A stretch of 64,000 nt of DNA, from positions 1 through 64,000 of the forward strand of contig PKUO01000002.1 in NCBI GenBank assembly GCA_002869585.1, written 5' to 3'. The notes beneath the pieces are model-generated. The model saw nothing but the letters and a program-made list of their open reading frames with translations. It was not told the DNA's origin and did not search any database. Origin of the DNA: Sedimenticola sp. (GTDB lineage: Bacteria > Pseudomonadota > Gammaproteobacteria > Chromatiales > Chromatiaceae). Of this stretch, positions 13,922 through 42,132 are shown piece after piece; the first letter of the stretch is position 1; the number at the start of each line of letters is the position of its first letter. The position numbers were made by a program, and so were the translations under genes.

Positions 13922-14668
13922 ATGGGGCCAGCACGCCAAAAACCTGAACTGATTGCACTATTTACCGATTTTGGTTCAGATGGAATCTATACCGGGCAGA
14001 TGCATATCGCATTGGCAGGCGCCGGTGTGCCGGTAATCGACCTCCTTTCCAATGCCCCGGCTTTCAATCCTCGGGCATCTGCCCATCTCCTCTCAGCGCT
14101 AATAGCCTCTCAGAAACCTGGAATTCTCTATCTCTGTGTTGTCGATCCAGGGGTTGGCTCTGATCGTCTGCCATTACTGATAGCCACCGGCAGAAACTGG
14201 TTTGTCGGGCCTGATAATGGCCTGTTTTCGCAGATTCTCAAGGGTAACACTGATGCCCAGGTGAGAAGTATCGAGTGGCGCAGACAAGGCATCTCCAACA
14301 GCTTTCACGGGCGGGATCTGTTCGCGCCGGTGGCCGAAAGGGTTTGCCAGGGGTTGGCGGTAGCCTCGAAACCGCTAGATGCGGCAGATCTTGTCGGCAG
14401 CGATTGGCCTTCTGATCTTGCCGAGATTATCTATATCGATAGTTTTGGCAATTTGATGACGGGAATCCGCGCCGGAGATGTGGCACAGGATAGGACCATC
14501 AAAATCCACAATGTGAATGTTCCCTACGCCAGGACCTTCAGCCTGGTGGAGGAAGATCAGCTATTCTGGTATGAGAACTCCATTGGGCTGGTAGAGATTG
14601 CCGCCAACAAGTGCAGTGCGGCAACTATGTTGGATGCGTTGATCGGTACGCCGCTAGTGATCGGCTAA
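13922..14668 (+). CDS. SAM hydrolase / SAM hydroxide adenosyltransferase (DUF62)
   Basis: 248 residues from the ATG at 13922; the frame opens at 13850 inside the terminator, so the later start is preferred. Family marks are ALFTDFGSDGIYTGQMHIAL at the N-terminus, VVDPGVGSDRLPL, the GPDNGLFSQIL segment and FHGRDLFAPVAERV, matching the SAM hydroxide adenosyltransferase family (relatives of fluorinase and chlorinase), which cleaves S-adenosylmethionine to adenosine and methionine using water. Its physiological role is not well settled. It follows the ribosomal terminator and is convergent with uvrA, with only five bases between the stops. Confidence 0.88.
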   Translation: MGPARQKPELIALFTDFGSDGIYTGQMHIALAGAGVPVIDLLSNAPAFNPRASAHLLSALIASQKPGILYLCVVDPGVGSDRLPLLIATGRNWFVGPDNGLFSQILKGNTDAQVRSIEWRRQGISNSFHGRDLFAPVAERVCQGLAVASKPLDAADLVGSDWPSDLAEIIYIDSFGNLMTGIRAGDVAQDRTIKIHNVNVPYARTFSLVEEDQLFWYENSIGLVEIAANKCSAATMLDALIGTPLVIG

Positions 14669-38298: not shown

Positions 38299-39084
38299 CT
38301 ATTCCTCGCCCTCCGCGAGATGGTGATCACGGTGCTCAGTCGGGCTTTGCTCATCGACGGTGCCATGGGCAGAATCCGGGGCATGGATATGCAGATGCGA
38401 ATGGGTGTGGGTATGTGGGTGGCTGTGCAGCAGCGCATCACTCAGCTGTCCCTGTTGCAACAGTATCGCACGCGTTGCCAGTCGCTCCACGAAGCGGCGG
38501 TCATGGGAGACGAACAGCATCGCCTGGGGCAGGCCTTCCAGGTGTTCGATCAGGAGACGCTCGCTTTTTTCATCCAGCCCGCTGGTGGGTTCGTCCAGTA
38601 GCAGCACCTCAGGCTGCATCGCCAGCACCGTGGCGAGTGACACCAGGCGTTTCTCGCCGCCGGACAGCTTGTGGGTAACCCGTTCTGCGAAATTCTCAAT
38701 GCCGAGGGTGGCAAGGGTCGCTTGGGCGATCGCCTCGGCCTGTTGCCTTGAATTCCCCTGGTTCAGGGGGCCGAAGGCGACATCCTCCAGCACCGTCGGG
38801 CAGAACAGCTGGTCATCCGGGTCCTGGAACAGCAGCCCGACCCTTAGCCGCAGGTCACGAAACGCCTTTTCCTCGCGGCGATCCTGTCCGAATGCGGTGA
38901 TGTGCCCCGTGGTGCAGGGGTGCAGACCGACCAGCAGCTGCAGCAGGGTGGATTTACCCGCACCGTTGTCTCCAACCAGGGCCACCCGCTCACCGGCATG
39001 CAGGGCGAAATCCACGCGATTGAGTATCGGGCGGCCGGGATAGGCAAAACTGACCTGGTGCAGGGCGAGCAGGGGAGTGTTCAT
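38299..39084 (-). CDS. cbiO: ECF nickel/cobalt transporter ATPase
   Basis: 261 residues. Walker A GDNGAGKST (about 38-46), Q-loop FQDPDDQLFCPTV, signature LSGGEKRLVSLA, Walker B VLLLDEPTSGLDE and the switch histidine in VSHDRRF are intact. The last 45 residues contain an unusual His-rich stretch (HSHPHTHTHSHLHIH) that could bind nickel or cobalt. It is the energising subunit of the transporter. Its start overlaps cbiQ by four bases; it is the last gene of the operon. Confidence 0.93.
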   Translation of the reverse strand: MNTPLLALHQVSFAYPGRPILNRVDFALHAGERVALVGDNGAGKSTLLQLLVGLHPCTTGHITAFGQDRREEKAFRDLRLRVGLLFQDPDDQLFCPTVLEDVAFGPLNQGNSRQQAEAIAQATLATLGIENFAERVTHKLSGGEKRLVSLATVLAMQPEVLLLDEPTSGLDEKSERLLIEHLEGLPQAMLFVSHDRRFVERLATRAILLQQGQLSDALLHSHPHTHTHSHLHIHAPDSAHGTVDEQSPTEHRDHHLAEGEE

Positions 39085-39842
39085 GACTGATGCTCCAGGA
39101 GCAGAAGGCCCAACAGCAGGGAGGCTGCGATCACTCCAAAATAGCTGTCCATGGCCTGCCAGTGATAACGCCCGAGCAGGTAGAGACGGCCATCAAACCC
39201 CCGACACTTCATGGCCGCGAGGATACGCCGTGAGCGCTCCAGGCTGCGCACCAGCAGCATGCCGGTCAGCCAGCCGAGGGTTCGCCAGGTGTGGAGATCG
39301 CTGCGGGGAACGAAGGCGCGGGCACGCATCGCCTGGCGCAGGCGCTGGTACTCTCTGTGGACCACGTCGATGTAGCGCACGGTGAACAGAAACAGGTGGA
39401 CCAGCTTGTCCGGCACCCCCAGCCGCGACAGGGCATGGCCGAGCACCACCGGCTCCAGGGTGCCGAGCAGGGCCAGCAGGGAGATCACCACGGCGTTGGC
39501 CCTGAGCAGAGTCAGGAGAGCGTGGTTCATGCCCTCCTGGCTGGCCATGAACGGCCCGAGCTGGAAGAGCGTCTCGCCGGGAACGCTGAACGGCAGGAAC
39601 AGCAAAAGCACCAGCATGAAGCCCTCGAGCAACAGCAATCGCCGCGCCAGCTGCCGCGGCTCTATTCCTGCCGCCATGGCGAGTGCGGCGGCCCCGCCCA
39701 AGGCCAGCAGCAGTATGGGAGGATGGTGCAGATTGACCACCACCAGGGCGAACCCCAGCGCGGCGAGGATCCTCAATCTTGGATCGCGGTCGCTGAGCCA
39801 GCCAGCGGCGCTTGAGGAACTGGAGAGCAGTTCGCCGCTCAT
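39081..39842 (-). CDS. cbiQ: ECF nickel/cobalt transporter transmembrane subunit
   Basis: 253 residues with about five membrane helices. The conserved coupling motifs AMRARAFVP and the RSLERSRRILAAMKCRGFDG segment (about 185-225) are the cytoplasmic helices that dock with the ATPase. It joins the substrate-binding M subunit to CbiO. It overlaps both neighbours by four bases (ATGA type), so the whole operon is translationally coupled. Confidence 0.92.
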   Translation of the reverse strand: MSGELLSSSSSAAGWLSDRDPRLRILAALGFALVVVNLHHPPILLLALGGAAALAMAAGIEPRQLARRLLLLEGFMLVLLLFLPFSVPGETLFQLGPFMASQEGMNHALLTLLRANAVVISLLALLGTLEPVVLGHALSRLGVPDKLVHLFLFTVRYIDVVHREYQRLRQAMRARAFVPRSDLHTWRTLGWLTGMLLVRSLERSRRILAAMKCRGFDGRLYLLGRYHWQAMDSYFGVIAASLLLGLLLLEHQS

Positions 39843-40447
39843 GGCTTTTTCGCCGGTTGCCGGCTACGCCACCACAACGCCAGTCCTGCAAGGCCGAGGA
39901 TGTAGCCGATGCCCCCGATGATATCCAGCCAGCGCCGCCTATCCTCGTAGGCGATCAACGCCTCGCGCAGGGGGCGTATCTGGCGCGCCACGGCCTGTTC
40001 AACATGCGCTGATAATTGTAGTTCATTGAGGGTTATAGTGACGTCAGTGGCACTCGCCGCTGGTGGCGTGGGCGCAACCCTGGGGGAGGGCTCTGTTGCC
40101 TGCTCTTCCACTGGTGCGGGGAGTTCGCCAGGGAGTTGATCCGCGCTGACCATCCACTTTGCCAGGTGGCCGTCACCACTGTCGGCCAATACCAGGTGAT
40201 CCATGCGTCGGGTGGCAGTAAAGTTGAACTGGCCCTCGGCATCGGGCGCCAGTTCCGCAAGCGTCACCCCGTCGGGATCACGGATGCTGATGTTCGCCCC
40301 GGACGCCTTGGCGCCACCCACGAAATAGGCCGAACCCTGGATATGACTGCCCTCGGCAAACGCGAATACCTTCAGCCGGTGCGCCTGCAAGGGGGCGCTG
40401 AACAGCAGGGTCATGCCCAGCAGGAAACCGAAAACAGCCCTAGCCAT
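39839..40447 (-). CDS. Accessory Ni/Co transporter subunit, NikL-like
   Basis: 202 residues from the ATG at 40447, with GGAGG eight bases upstream; the frame is open earlier but overlaps cbiM. A signal peptide ends PLQA, so the mature chain begins His-Arg-Leu-Lys-Val-Phe. A carboxypeptidase-like beta domain (about 20-85, SIRDPDGVTLAELAPDAEGQ) is followed by a Pro/Ala linker, a helix (about 130-165) and a C-terminal membrane helix (about 175-193). This layout fits the NikL/CbiL-type subunit of NikKMLQO nickel systems. The start overlaps the cbiM stop by eight bases. Confidence 0.82.
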   Translation of the reverse strand: MARAVFGFLLGMTLLFSAPLQAHRLKVFAFAEGSHIQGSAYFVGGAKASGANISIRDPDGVTLAELAPDAEGQFNFTATRRMDHLVLADSGDGHLAKWMVSADQLPGELPAPVEEQATEPSPRVAPTPPAASATDVTITLNELQLSAHVEQAVARQIRPLREALIAYEDRRRWLDIIGGIGYILGLAGLALWWRSRQPAKKP

Positions 40448-41060
40448 GTTGCTCCTCCGGGACAAACAGCAATTCAGGGGCCACGCGCCAGACGAAACTG
40501 ACCGCTGCGCCGGTGACCACCGCCTCGCCAATCACCAGGGGCAGATAGGTGAACGGGATCACCTTGGCCGCCGGCAGGAAGGCCGGTCCGCTGAGCGCCA
40601 GCGAGAGAGCCACCAGCACGCCGGTCAATAATACCCCCAGCCCCCCGGCGGCGGCACCCAGCAGAAAGGGGCGCGGTATCTGCTTTTGCCTCAACCGCCG
40701 CCCGAACAGCGCGGCGCAGACCAGTGCCGGCAGGGCAATGTTCAGGGTGTTCACCCCGAGCACCAGCAGACCGCCAAATCCGAAAAAGACCGCTTGCAGC
40801 AACAGCTCCACGAAAATGGCCGGGACTGCCGCCCAGCCCAGCACCATGCCCATCAGCCCGTTGAGAATCAGGTGCACGCTGCTGGGCCCGACCGGGACGC
40901 TGATCAGCGACGAGACGAACAGGGCAGAGGAGAGCACCGCCGCCTGGGGGATGCGCTCGTACTCGAGCCGTCGCACGGCATAGGCCAGGGCGCTCGCGCT
41001 CAGCAGCGCCCCGCCGATCAGCAGGGGTGCGCTCAGTACGCCGTCGGGAATGTGTGCGAT
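40440..41060 (-). CDS. cbiM: ECF Ni/Co substrate-binding membrane subunit, ATC start
   Basis: 206 residues if translation begins at ATC (41060-41058), giving (M)AHIPDGVLSAPLLIGGAL. That is the conserved CbiM/NikM N-terminus, whose amine and histidine bind the metal. Upstream only seven codons separate it from an in-frame stop, and none is ATG, GTG or TTG; AGGAG ends nine bases before ATC. The next ordinary start (GTG 40976) would delete 28 residues including this motif. GPSSVHLILNGLMG holds the second metal-site histidine. If Met is removed before Ala, His becomes residue 2, as in NikM. It follows nikK by 18 bases. Confidence 0.88.
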   Translation of the reverse strand: MAHIPDGVLSAPLLIGGALLSASALAYAVRRLEYERIPQAAVLSSALFVSSLISVPVGPSSVHLILNGLMGMVLGWAAVPAIFVELLLQAVFFGFGGLLVLGVNTLNIALPALVCAALFGRRLRQKQIPRPFLLGAAAGGLGVLLTGVLVALSLALSGPAFLPAAKVIPFTYLPLVIGEAVVTGAAVSFVWRVAPELLFVPEEQHG

Positions 41061-41078
41061 GGGGAGATTCTCCTGTGG

Positions 41079-41855
41079 TTATCGCATGTCGCGGGTATGG
41101 ACCCAGATCAGGCCGCCGGTCTCCACCGGCACCTGTTTACCATCGGGGTTGAGCATGGTCTCATTCCCCTCCGGCAGAGCGGCGAAACCCCACCAGCCGG
41201 CGCGCGGCATGGCGTAGACGAAGACGCCGTTGGCGTCGGTCTTTATCACCTGGGTGATATAGGCATCCGCCGGGGGTGTCAGCGAGCCGTCGTTGCGCCA
41301 CTCCACTTCGATTCGCGTGTTGGGGGCCGGTTTGCCGTTGCGCTTGACTACACCACGGAACAGATTGCCGCTCCACAGGCCGTAGGGGCGGGTCAGCGGG
41401 GCGATCTCGACCGGCAGGCCAATCTCACTGTCCCAGCCCTGCTCGGCTCCGTAGGCGCCGACGATCACCTTGGTGTAGTGGACGATCATCACCCCCTCCG
41501 CCGGCTCCCAGTAGGCCGAAGGCTCGATAAAGAAGAGGTAGTCGCCGGGCCGTTTGAAGGTGTAGTCGGCGCGGTAGGCACGTTTGCCATCCAGCTCAAT
41601 CGGTTGCAGGCTGGCCCTGAGGTCCTGTTCGCCTTCCGGACCGATCACGCCAAAGCGCCGTGGCTCGCCCATTGCCATCACCGGACCACCCTGCATGGGG
41701 TGGGTGAAGGCCAGGCTCAGGCCAGCGCGGTTGCCGGTTTCATGGGTGATCAGATCGCTGTCCGGGATCAACTCCTGGAAATGGGCCTGAGCCTGCCATG
41801 AGATTGTCCAGAGCAGCAACGCCATAGATAGGGCGGTGGATTTAACCGGTGTCAC
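41079..41855 (-). CDS. Periplasmic Ni/Co-binding protein, NikK-like (DUF4198)
   Basis: 258 residues from GTG 41855, with AGGA upstream. A signal peptide ends WQAQA, so the mature chain starts His-Phe-Gln-Glu-Leu. The body has the DUF4198 pattern ([23 protein letters not shown] segment; a second domain beginning [20 protein letters not shown]; a final WVHTRD). Such proteins are the K component of NikKMLQO-type uptake systems and probably deliver metal to CbiM. First gene of the operon. No NikR site or riboswitch is recognisable in the 277-bp region upstream. Confidence 0.85.
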
Positions 41856-42132
41856 TTGGATTTCCTGCCTCCAAATTGATTTTGCGCTGGGAGGATGTGA
41901 GTAATACTTTTGTAAATTAAATAATATTTGCTTCGGATTGTGAAGCAGGGATTGCCGTTTTCCCTGGCCAACGCGCCAAACGATGTGGGATAGGCCGGTT
42001 TCGAGGAGGGGGTGTTGCGATATTTTTATTACAATTTAAGCGGTTAAAATCCCGGAATGCGCCCACCTTCGCTGGAAAAAGGCTACTATAGGGGGTAAGC
42101 TAGCGCGCCCTTTTTGACTGTATTAGATTTCC

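Follow-up and report, generated by a model that had tools for sequence, protein, structure and literature searches.

Evidence that nikM of Sedimenticola sp. starts at an ATC codon, recurrent among its relatives

How do bacterial genes come to begin with a codon other than ATG, GTG or TTG? The closest described cases are two. According to passages of one paper (PMC5472188), infC starts with ATT in E. coli and with ATC in Streptomyces, and the GTC start of sigR is repressed by IF3, follows an extensive ribosome-binding site and is misannotated by gene callers. Retained AUC starts are hardly documented outside infC, a translation gene that regulates itself and from which such starts are mainly known. 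Among the papers listed by our literature searches on AUC/ATC start codons and on the NikM start codon, none was seen to report an ATC start in nikM. Here we describe such a start at the head of a transporter gene in the window, a stretch of 64,000 nucleotides of Sedimenticola sp. (contig PKUO01000002.1). The features concerned are collected in table 1.

Table 1. Features of the nik locus and of the nikM start region (positions in the window).
Feature	Position	Strand	Remarks
nikM (cbiM) CDS from ATC	40440..41060	-	206 codons plus TAG; Pfam and NF profile matches
nikK-like gene	41079..41855	-	DUF4198 (PF10670, E 1.8e-57); listed start GTG
nikL	39839..40447	-	NF058648, E 1.7e-55; ATG overlaps nikM stop
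nikQ/cbiQ, T component	39081..39842	-	TIGR02454, E 4e-44
nikO/cbiO, ATPase	38299..39084	-	ABC_tran E 9.2e-33; TIGR01166 below cut-off
nikM (cbiM) start codon, ATC	41058..41060	-	same position as the ATG/GTG/TTG/ATC of homologues
AGGAG Shine-Dalgarno	41070..41074	-	9-base spacer to ATC; duplex -7.4 kcal/mol
TAA stop of nikK	41079..41081	-	same frame as nikM; 18 bases separate it from ATC

The nikM frame covers positions 1–205 of the 205 in the CbiM profile PF01891 (E 6.6e-54, 183.3 bits against a cut-off of 23.1) and also matches NF004905 (E 1.2e-73, 247.7 against a cut-off of 173). This full-length CbiM match above the cut-off marks its product as the S component of a group I ECF transporter. 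The K, M, L, Q and O genes are adjacent and there is no N gene, which is how the nikKMLQO operon type is defined; the order K-M-L-Q-O is that of nickel ECF systems (passages of PMC2667541). Between 37000 and 43500 no Rfam riboswitch or other Rfam RNA was found at the gathering thresholds. Since the neighbour belongs to the NikL family and there is no such riboswitch, we take the gene for the nikM of a nikKMLQO operon and not for a cobalamin cbiM. The original prediction had named it cbiM, for which nikM is the better name. The operon would be of the nickel/cobalt ECF type, with nickel as the putative substrate. Matches to the NiFe-hydrogenase large subunit occur in all five of the ATC genomes that were searched.

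Several observations on the locus and the family stand apart from the start codon. A second, divergent gene of the CbiM family lies elsewhere in the same genome (L002, G000:C101:88544-89158, E 2.3e-11). The leader of the nik operon contains a stem-loop of six pairs (TGCTTC-N7-GAAGCA, 41929-41947) that may be a regulator site or an attenuator. A promoter scan gave no more than chance. In four genomes of the genus coded g15 (L044, L045, L047, L099) NikM has 228–279 residues and its protein match is split midway, as if by an insert.

Where does nikM begin? The minus strand of the window has the sequence TAA CCA CAG GAG AAT CTC CCC ATC GCA CAC ATT CCC GAC GGC GTA CTG AGC, and the first ordinary start in the frame is a GTG at codon 29 (40976), which would give a protein of 178 residues. 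It had been proposed that the AHIPDG N-terminus is encoded in frame upstream of this first ordinary start and that an AGGAG stands nine bases before the ATC; both are borne out on the minus strand, the AGGAG at 41074-41070. The claim of seven codons between the TAA and the ATC needs correction, there being six, or seven if the ATC is counted; that none of them is ATG, GTG, TTG or CTG is correct. Gene callers are likely to annotate nikM wrongly as the 178-residue protein.

If the GTG at 40976 were the start used, the upstream AHIPDG segment would be untranslated. It is the first ordinary start, and this speaks for it. However, codons 2–12 evolve as coding sequence. Among the 105 pairs formed by 15 loci with an ATH start, mismatches at codon positions 1, 2 and 3 number 146, 64 and 674 (1155 comparisons each), and the codon differences are 590 synonymous against 116 non-synonymous, while 63% of the 21 bases upstream of the start differ between loci. 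The start codon itself is ATC in 14 of the 15; the isoleucine at codon 4 is written ATC nine times, ATT four times and ATA twice. The Pfam match begins at residue 3, and in the ATH loci the first internal ordinary codon varies in place from codon 8 to codon 29. In the CbiM/NikM2 structure 4m58, a homologous S component (E 2.4e-9, search of PDB sequences), His2 lies within HIP(D/E)G and aligns with the histidine of AHIPDG, although 4m58 begins M-H whereas the present NikM begins (M)-A-H. Judged from these substitutions, the AHIPDG segment downstream of the ATC is translated, and initiation at the GTG is very improbable.

Is the ATC peculiar to this genome? A protein search of 194 genomes of the family gave a match in 87, and the loci of close homologues were read at their starts. 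At 45 sites in 210 family genomes the codon before AHIPDG is ATG 29 times, ATC eight times, TTG five times and GTG three times, with none other among the 48 codons that the pattern DNN-AHIPDG allows; any codon with C as its first base, CTG included, is invisible to it. ATC thus stands at the same place in seven other genomes of the family by this pattern search. The divergent homologue of one more family member (G096), missed by the tighter pattern, has ATC too. At the level of the order the search took in the same 210 genomes and yielded the same sites. Across the class two of 369 genomes have the site, that of the window and G439, and ATC stands there in each; in the phylum it was found in four of 398, the window's own with ATC and three outside the class with ATG. 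The family of G439 has the site in two of its five genomes (G439 and its congener G953), both with ATC. A scan of contigs for ATH-AHIPDG gave 23 stretches, ten of them nikM (nine ATC, one ATA) and 13 other or chance frames; the ten, from Sedimenticola, Thiococcus, Thioalkalivibrio, Thiotrichales, Chromatiales, Aestuariirhabdus and alphaproteobacterial records, say nothing about frequency because they were collected by the ATH pattern. The nikM of the Aestuariirhabdus MAG (L082, 4359-4384) starts with ATA behind an AAAGGAG.

Several species therefore have, at the conserved position, a start other than ATG, GTG or TTG. Because the same codon recurs at the same place in other genomes of the family and in other lineages, the ATC of nikM is not a matter of chance. 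Nor is it required, since 29 of the 45 relatives' sites have ATG; within Sedimenticola (genus code g4) the nikM genes of G148 and G161 start with ATG. No homologue of the AHIPDG type lacking HIPDG was found. Could the ATC be an ATG misread or misassembled? The genome is a draft of 109 contigs, but ATC occurs in independent genomes, large contigs among them (G003:C1, 3.9 Mb; G032:C1, 4.0 Mb). Since the 45 sites of the family show only ATG, ATC, TTG and GTG, we reject such an error, which is the least probable of all the readings considered here. In six of the seven family ATC loci read, the leader is bounded by a stop and has no ordinary start, while L059 has a GTG 11 codons upstream. An upstream in-frame GTG is present in the nikM of G439 and of Thiococcus, which counts against the ATC reading.

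In this genome nikK and nikM share one frame, and readthrough of the nikK TAA would yield a NikK–NikM fusion. NikK, like the N-terminus of NikM, is periplasmic, and this and the shared frame speak for it. On the other hand the leader is dissimilar in relatives, where nikK ends in other frames, and a fusion would bury the metal-binding N-terminus; we regard it as even less probable than initiation at the internal GTG. Where it was found, the nikK stop lies 4–48 bases before the nikM start in 12 of 14 ATC loci. A special coupling to this stop as the cause of the ATC was rejected, for ATG genes show the same distances. Four ATC loci were folded and revealed no common RNA structure in the leader (z-scores -0.49, -2.26, -1.18 and 0.66); a hairpin of four pairs over the AGGAG of the window is absent from the other ATC loci folded.

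What distinguishes the ATC genes is the strength of their Shine-Dalgarno sequences. In 58 rows from 60 loci (L094 and L098, having no AHI site, were dropped) the mean pairing with the anti-Shine-Dalgarno was -8.44 kcal/mol for ATC (14), -8.2 for ATA (1), -5.21 for TTG (8), -5.30 for GTG (3) and -3.50 for ATG (32). The ATH values lie below those of ATG (p 2e-7) and below those of GTG and TTG (p 2e-5). With one row for each same-start cluster at 70% identity, p becomes 0.012 and 0.0026, respectively; the difference survives thinning at 90, 80 and 70% identity, which is not a phylogenetic test. Between ATC and ATG it also persists within the family sample (52 rows), while independent pairs on the tree, with a single starred pair, have no power. 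Strong Shine-Dalgarno sequences thus accompany the nikM ATC starts, and within one gene family Shine-Dalgarno strength tracks the weakness of the start codon. Passages of PMC5622118 link the weak starts GUG and UUG with strong Shine-Dalgarno sequences. The nikM genes of G187, G183 and G564 (L004, L005, L062) have ATG and a weak Shine-Dalgarno or none, and no end of nikK was found immediately before them.

The same codon thus recurs in independent genomes, substitution of the coding kind reaches up to it, it aligns with the ATG, GTG or TTG of homologues, and it goes with the strongest Shine-Dalgarno sequences of the set; the prediction that ATC is the true start is supported. Taken whole, the best explanation makes the ATC at 41060-41058 the initiation codon of nikM, with a probability of roughly 80%. 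On the evidence of sequence we count an ATC start in nikM as a confirmed observation.

Is the start of nikM part of a general loosening of start choice? We compared 0.72 Mb of the window's genome (G000) with 1.6 Mb of G003, obtaining 89 sense-like reciprocal best pairs, among which nikM and infC alone carry ATC at a conserved start position in both genomes. Fourteen of the pairs were inspected. The twelve besides nikM and infC are explained, on a reading of their N-termini, by aligned ordinary starts, by upstream frames that overlap, by frames in antisense, or by a change confined to one of the genomes. A general loosening was rejected on these 89 pairs, a small sample. An IscR/Rrf2-like gene (L165 minus, about 14565-14574, G000:C8) reads GTG AGG TAA ACC ACA AAA GGT with a stop at codon 3, where G003 has MRLSTKGRY; this may be an error, a pseudogene or another start.

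In G000 infC has ordinary codons further up, in an unconserved leader. Eighteen family genomes were searched for infC (G161 gave no match and G010 was unreadable), and all 16 that were read have ATC-GCN-GC(A/G/T), some of them with an ATG or TTG nikM. These are loci L107-L109, L111-L115, L260, L262-L264 and L266-L269. Since infC has ATC in 16 of 16, this lineage does use ATC as a start, and nikM joins infC as a second case. Outside the family infC has ATT in G439, G955 and G957 and possibly CTG in G956, G959 gave no match, and the gene of the Chromatiales STE_6 MAG (G958, L261) appears to start with ATA.

In a tree of 70 proteins no fewer than five changes are needed to account for the ATH label, and a constraint uniting the 15 ATH genes was rejected (p-AU 0.003); the tree is a quick one, with long branches and a group chosen by the trait. 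Two histories would fit, one early gain of ATC followed by several losses, or repeated gains.

What might leave the start codon free to vary? NikM reads (M)A-H-I-P-D-G, its histidine being codon 3. Methionine aminopeptidase should remove a Met that precedes Ala, so that in the A-H type Ala1-His2 would follow whatever the start codon, and would probably form the metal-binding N-terminus once fMet is gone. M-H-I-V-D-G is found in more distant homologues. According to a passage of PMC6828968 the first two residues of NikM/CbiM participate in binding the substrate, and Met1 would therefore itself be part of the site in the M-H type. Within the family these M-H-I homologues start with ATG in 20 of 20 cases; for the A-H-I-P-D-G type the figure is 29 of 45 (Fisher p 0.0013, phylogeny ignored). 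The figures fit a start codon freer to vary in the A-H type, and are no proof of it.

How would initiation proceed? Ribosomes coming from or near the nikK stop would be held by the strong Shine-Dalgarno some 7–9 bases upstream of the ATC, and fMet-tRNA would then initiate on AUC, a near-cognate codon; it is this holding of ribosomes that would make AUC initiation possible. Removal of fMet before Ala would expose Ala-His. The weak codon would hold the S component, NikM, at a lower level than its operon neighbours, and nikM synthesis would probably be sensitive to IF3, as that of infC in the same genomes; both expectations follow from what passages of PMC5472188 tell of infC and sigR. By this analogy it is plausible that ATC limits the amount of NikM, and the cell may benefit from such a start.

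The AUC start could, more speculatively, be an old retained device that ties assembly of the nickel transporter to the ratio of IF3 to ribosomes. NikM would then rise with a shortage of IF3 or a surplus of ribosomes, the device would have been lost to ATG, TTG and GTG where control was given up, and NikM and IF3 would form a small set of AUC-started genes; we think this unlikely. The main rival concerns the meaning of the ATC and not the site of the start. It holds that the ATC is real but has no regulatory meaning. The cell would tolerate a weak start because it needs little NikM, the Shine-Dalgarno and coupling to nikK would compensate, and the codon would drift among ATG, TTG, GTG and ATC. 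Eight of the 45 sites use TTG or GTG, Shine-Dalgarno compensation is graded and the start switches several times on the tree, all of which agree with such drift. Yet a single change of C to G would restore ATG, and ATC persists across genera while third positions nearby vary freely. Moreover an ancestral reconstruction gives one switch from AUG to AUU in 61,358 AUG starts, AUC being unnamed in the passages concerned (PMC5622118). We give tolerance without regulatory meaning a little under even odds.

The ATC start of nikM offers a natural reporter for IF3 discrimination in culturable bacteria, and it shows Shine-Dalgarno compensation rising by degrees inside a single gene family. It also points to a class of membrane proteins that are likely to lose their functional N-terminus in the output of gene callers. 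With infC, whose AUU or AUC serves autoregulation by IF3, nikM shares a rare ATH start at a conserved position behind a good Shine-Dalgarno. However, NikM is a subunit of a metal transporter with no known role in translation, and its product entails no feedback loop. Streptomyces sigR is comparable, being likewise a gene outside translation whose rare start is conserved in its lineage. The start of sigR differs in being GTC rather than ATC, in being proven by experiment, and in setting the ratio of sigma to antisigma factor.
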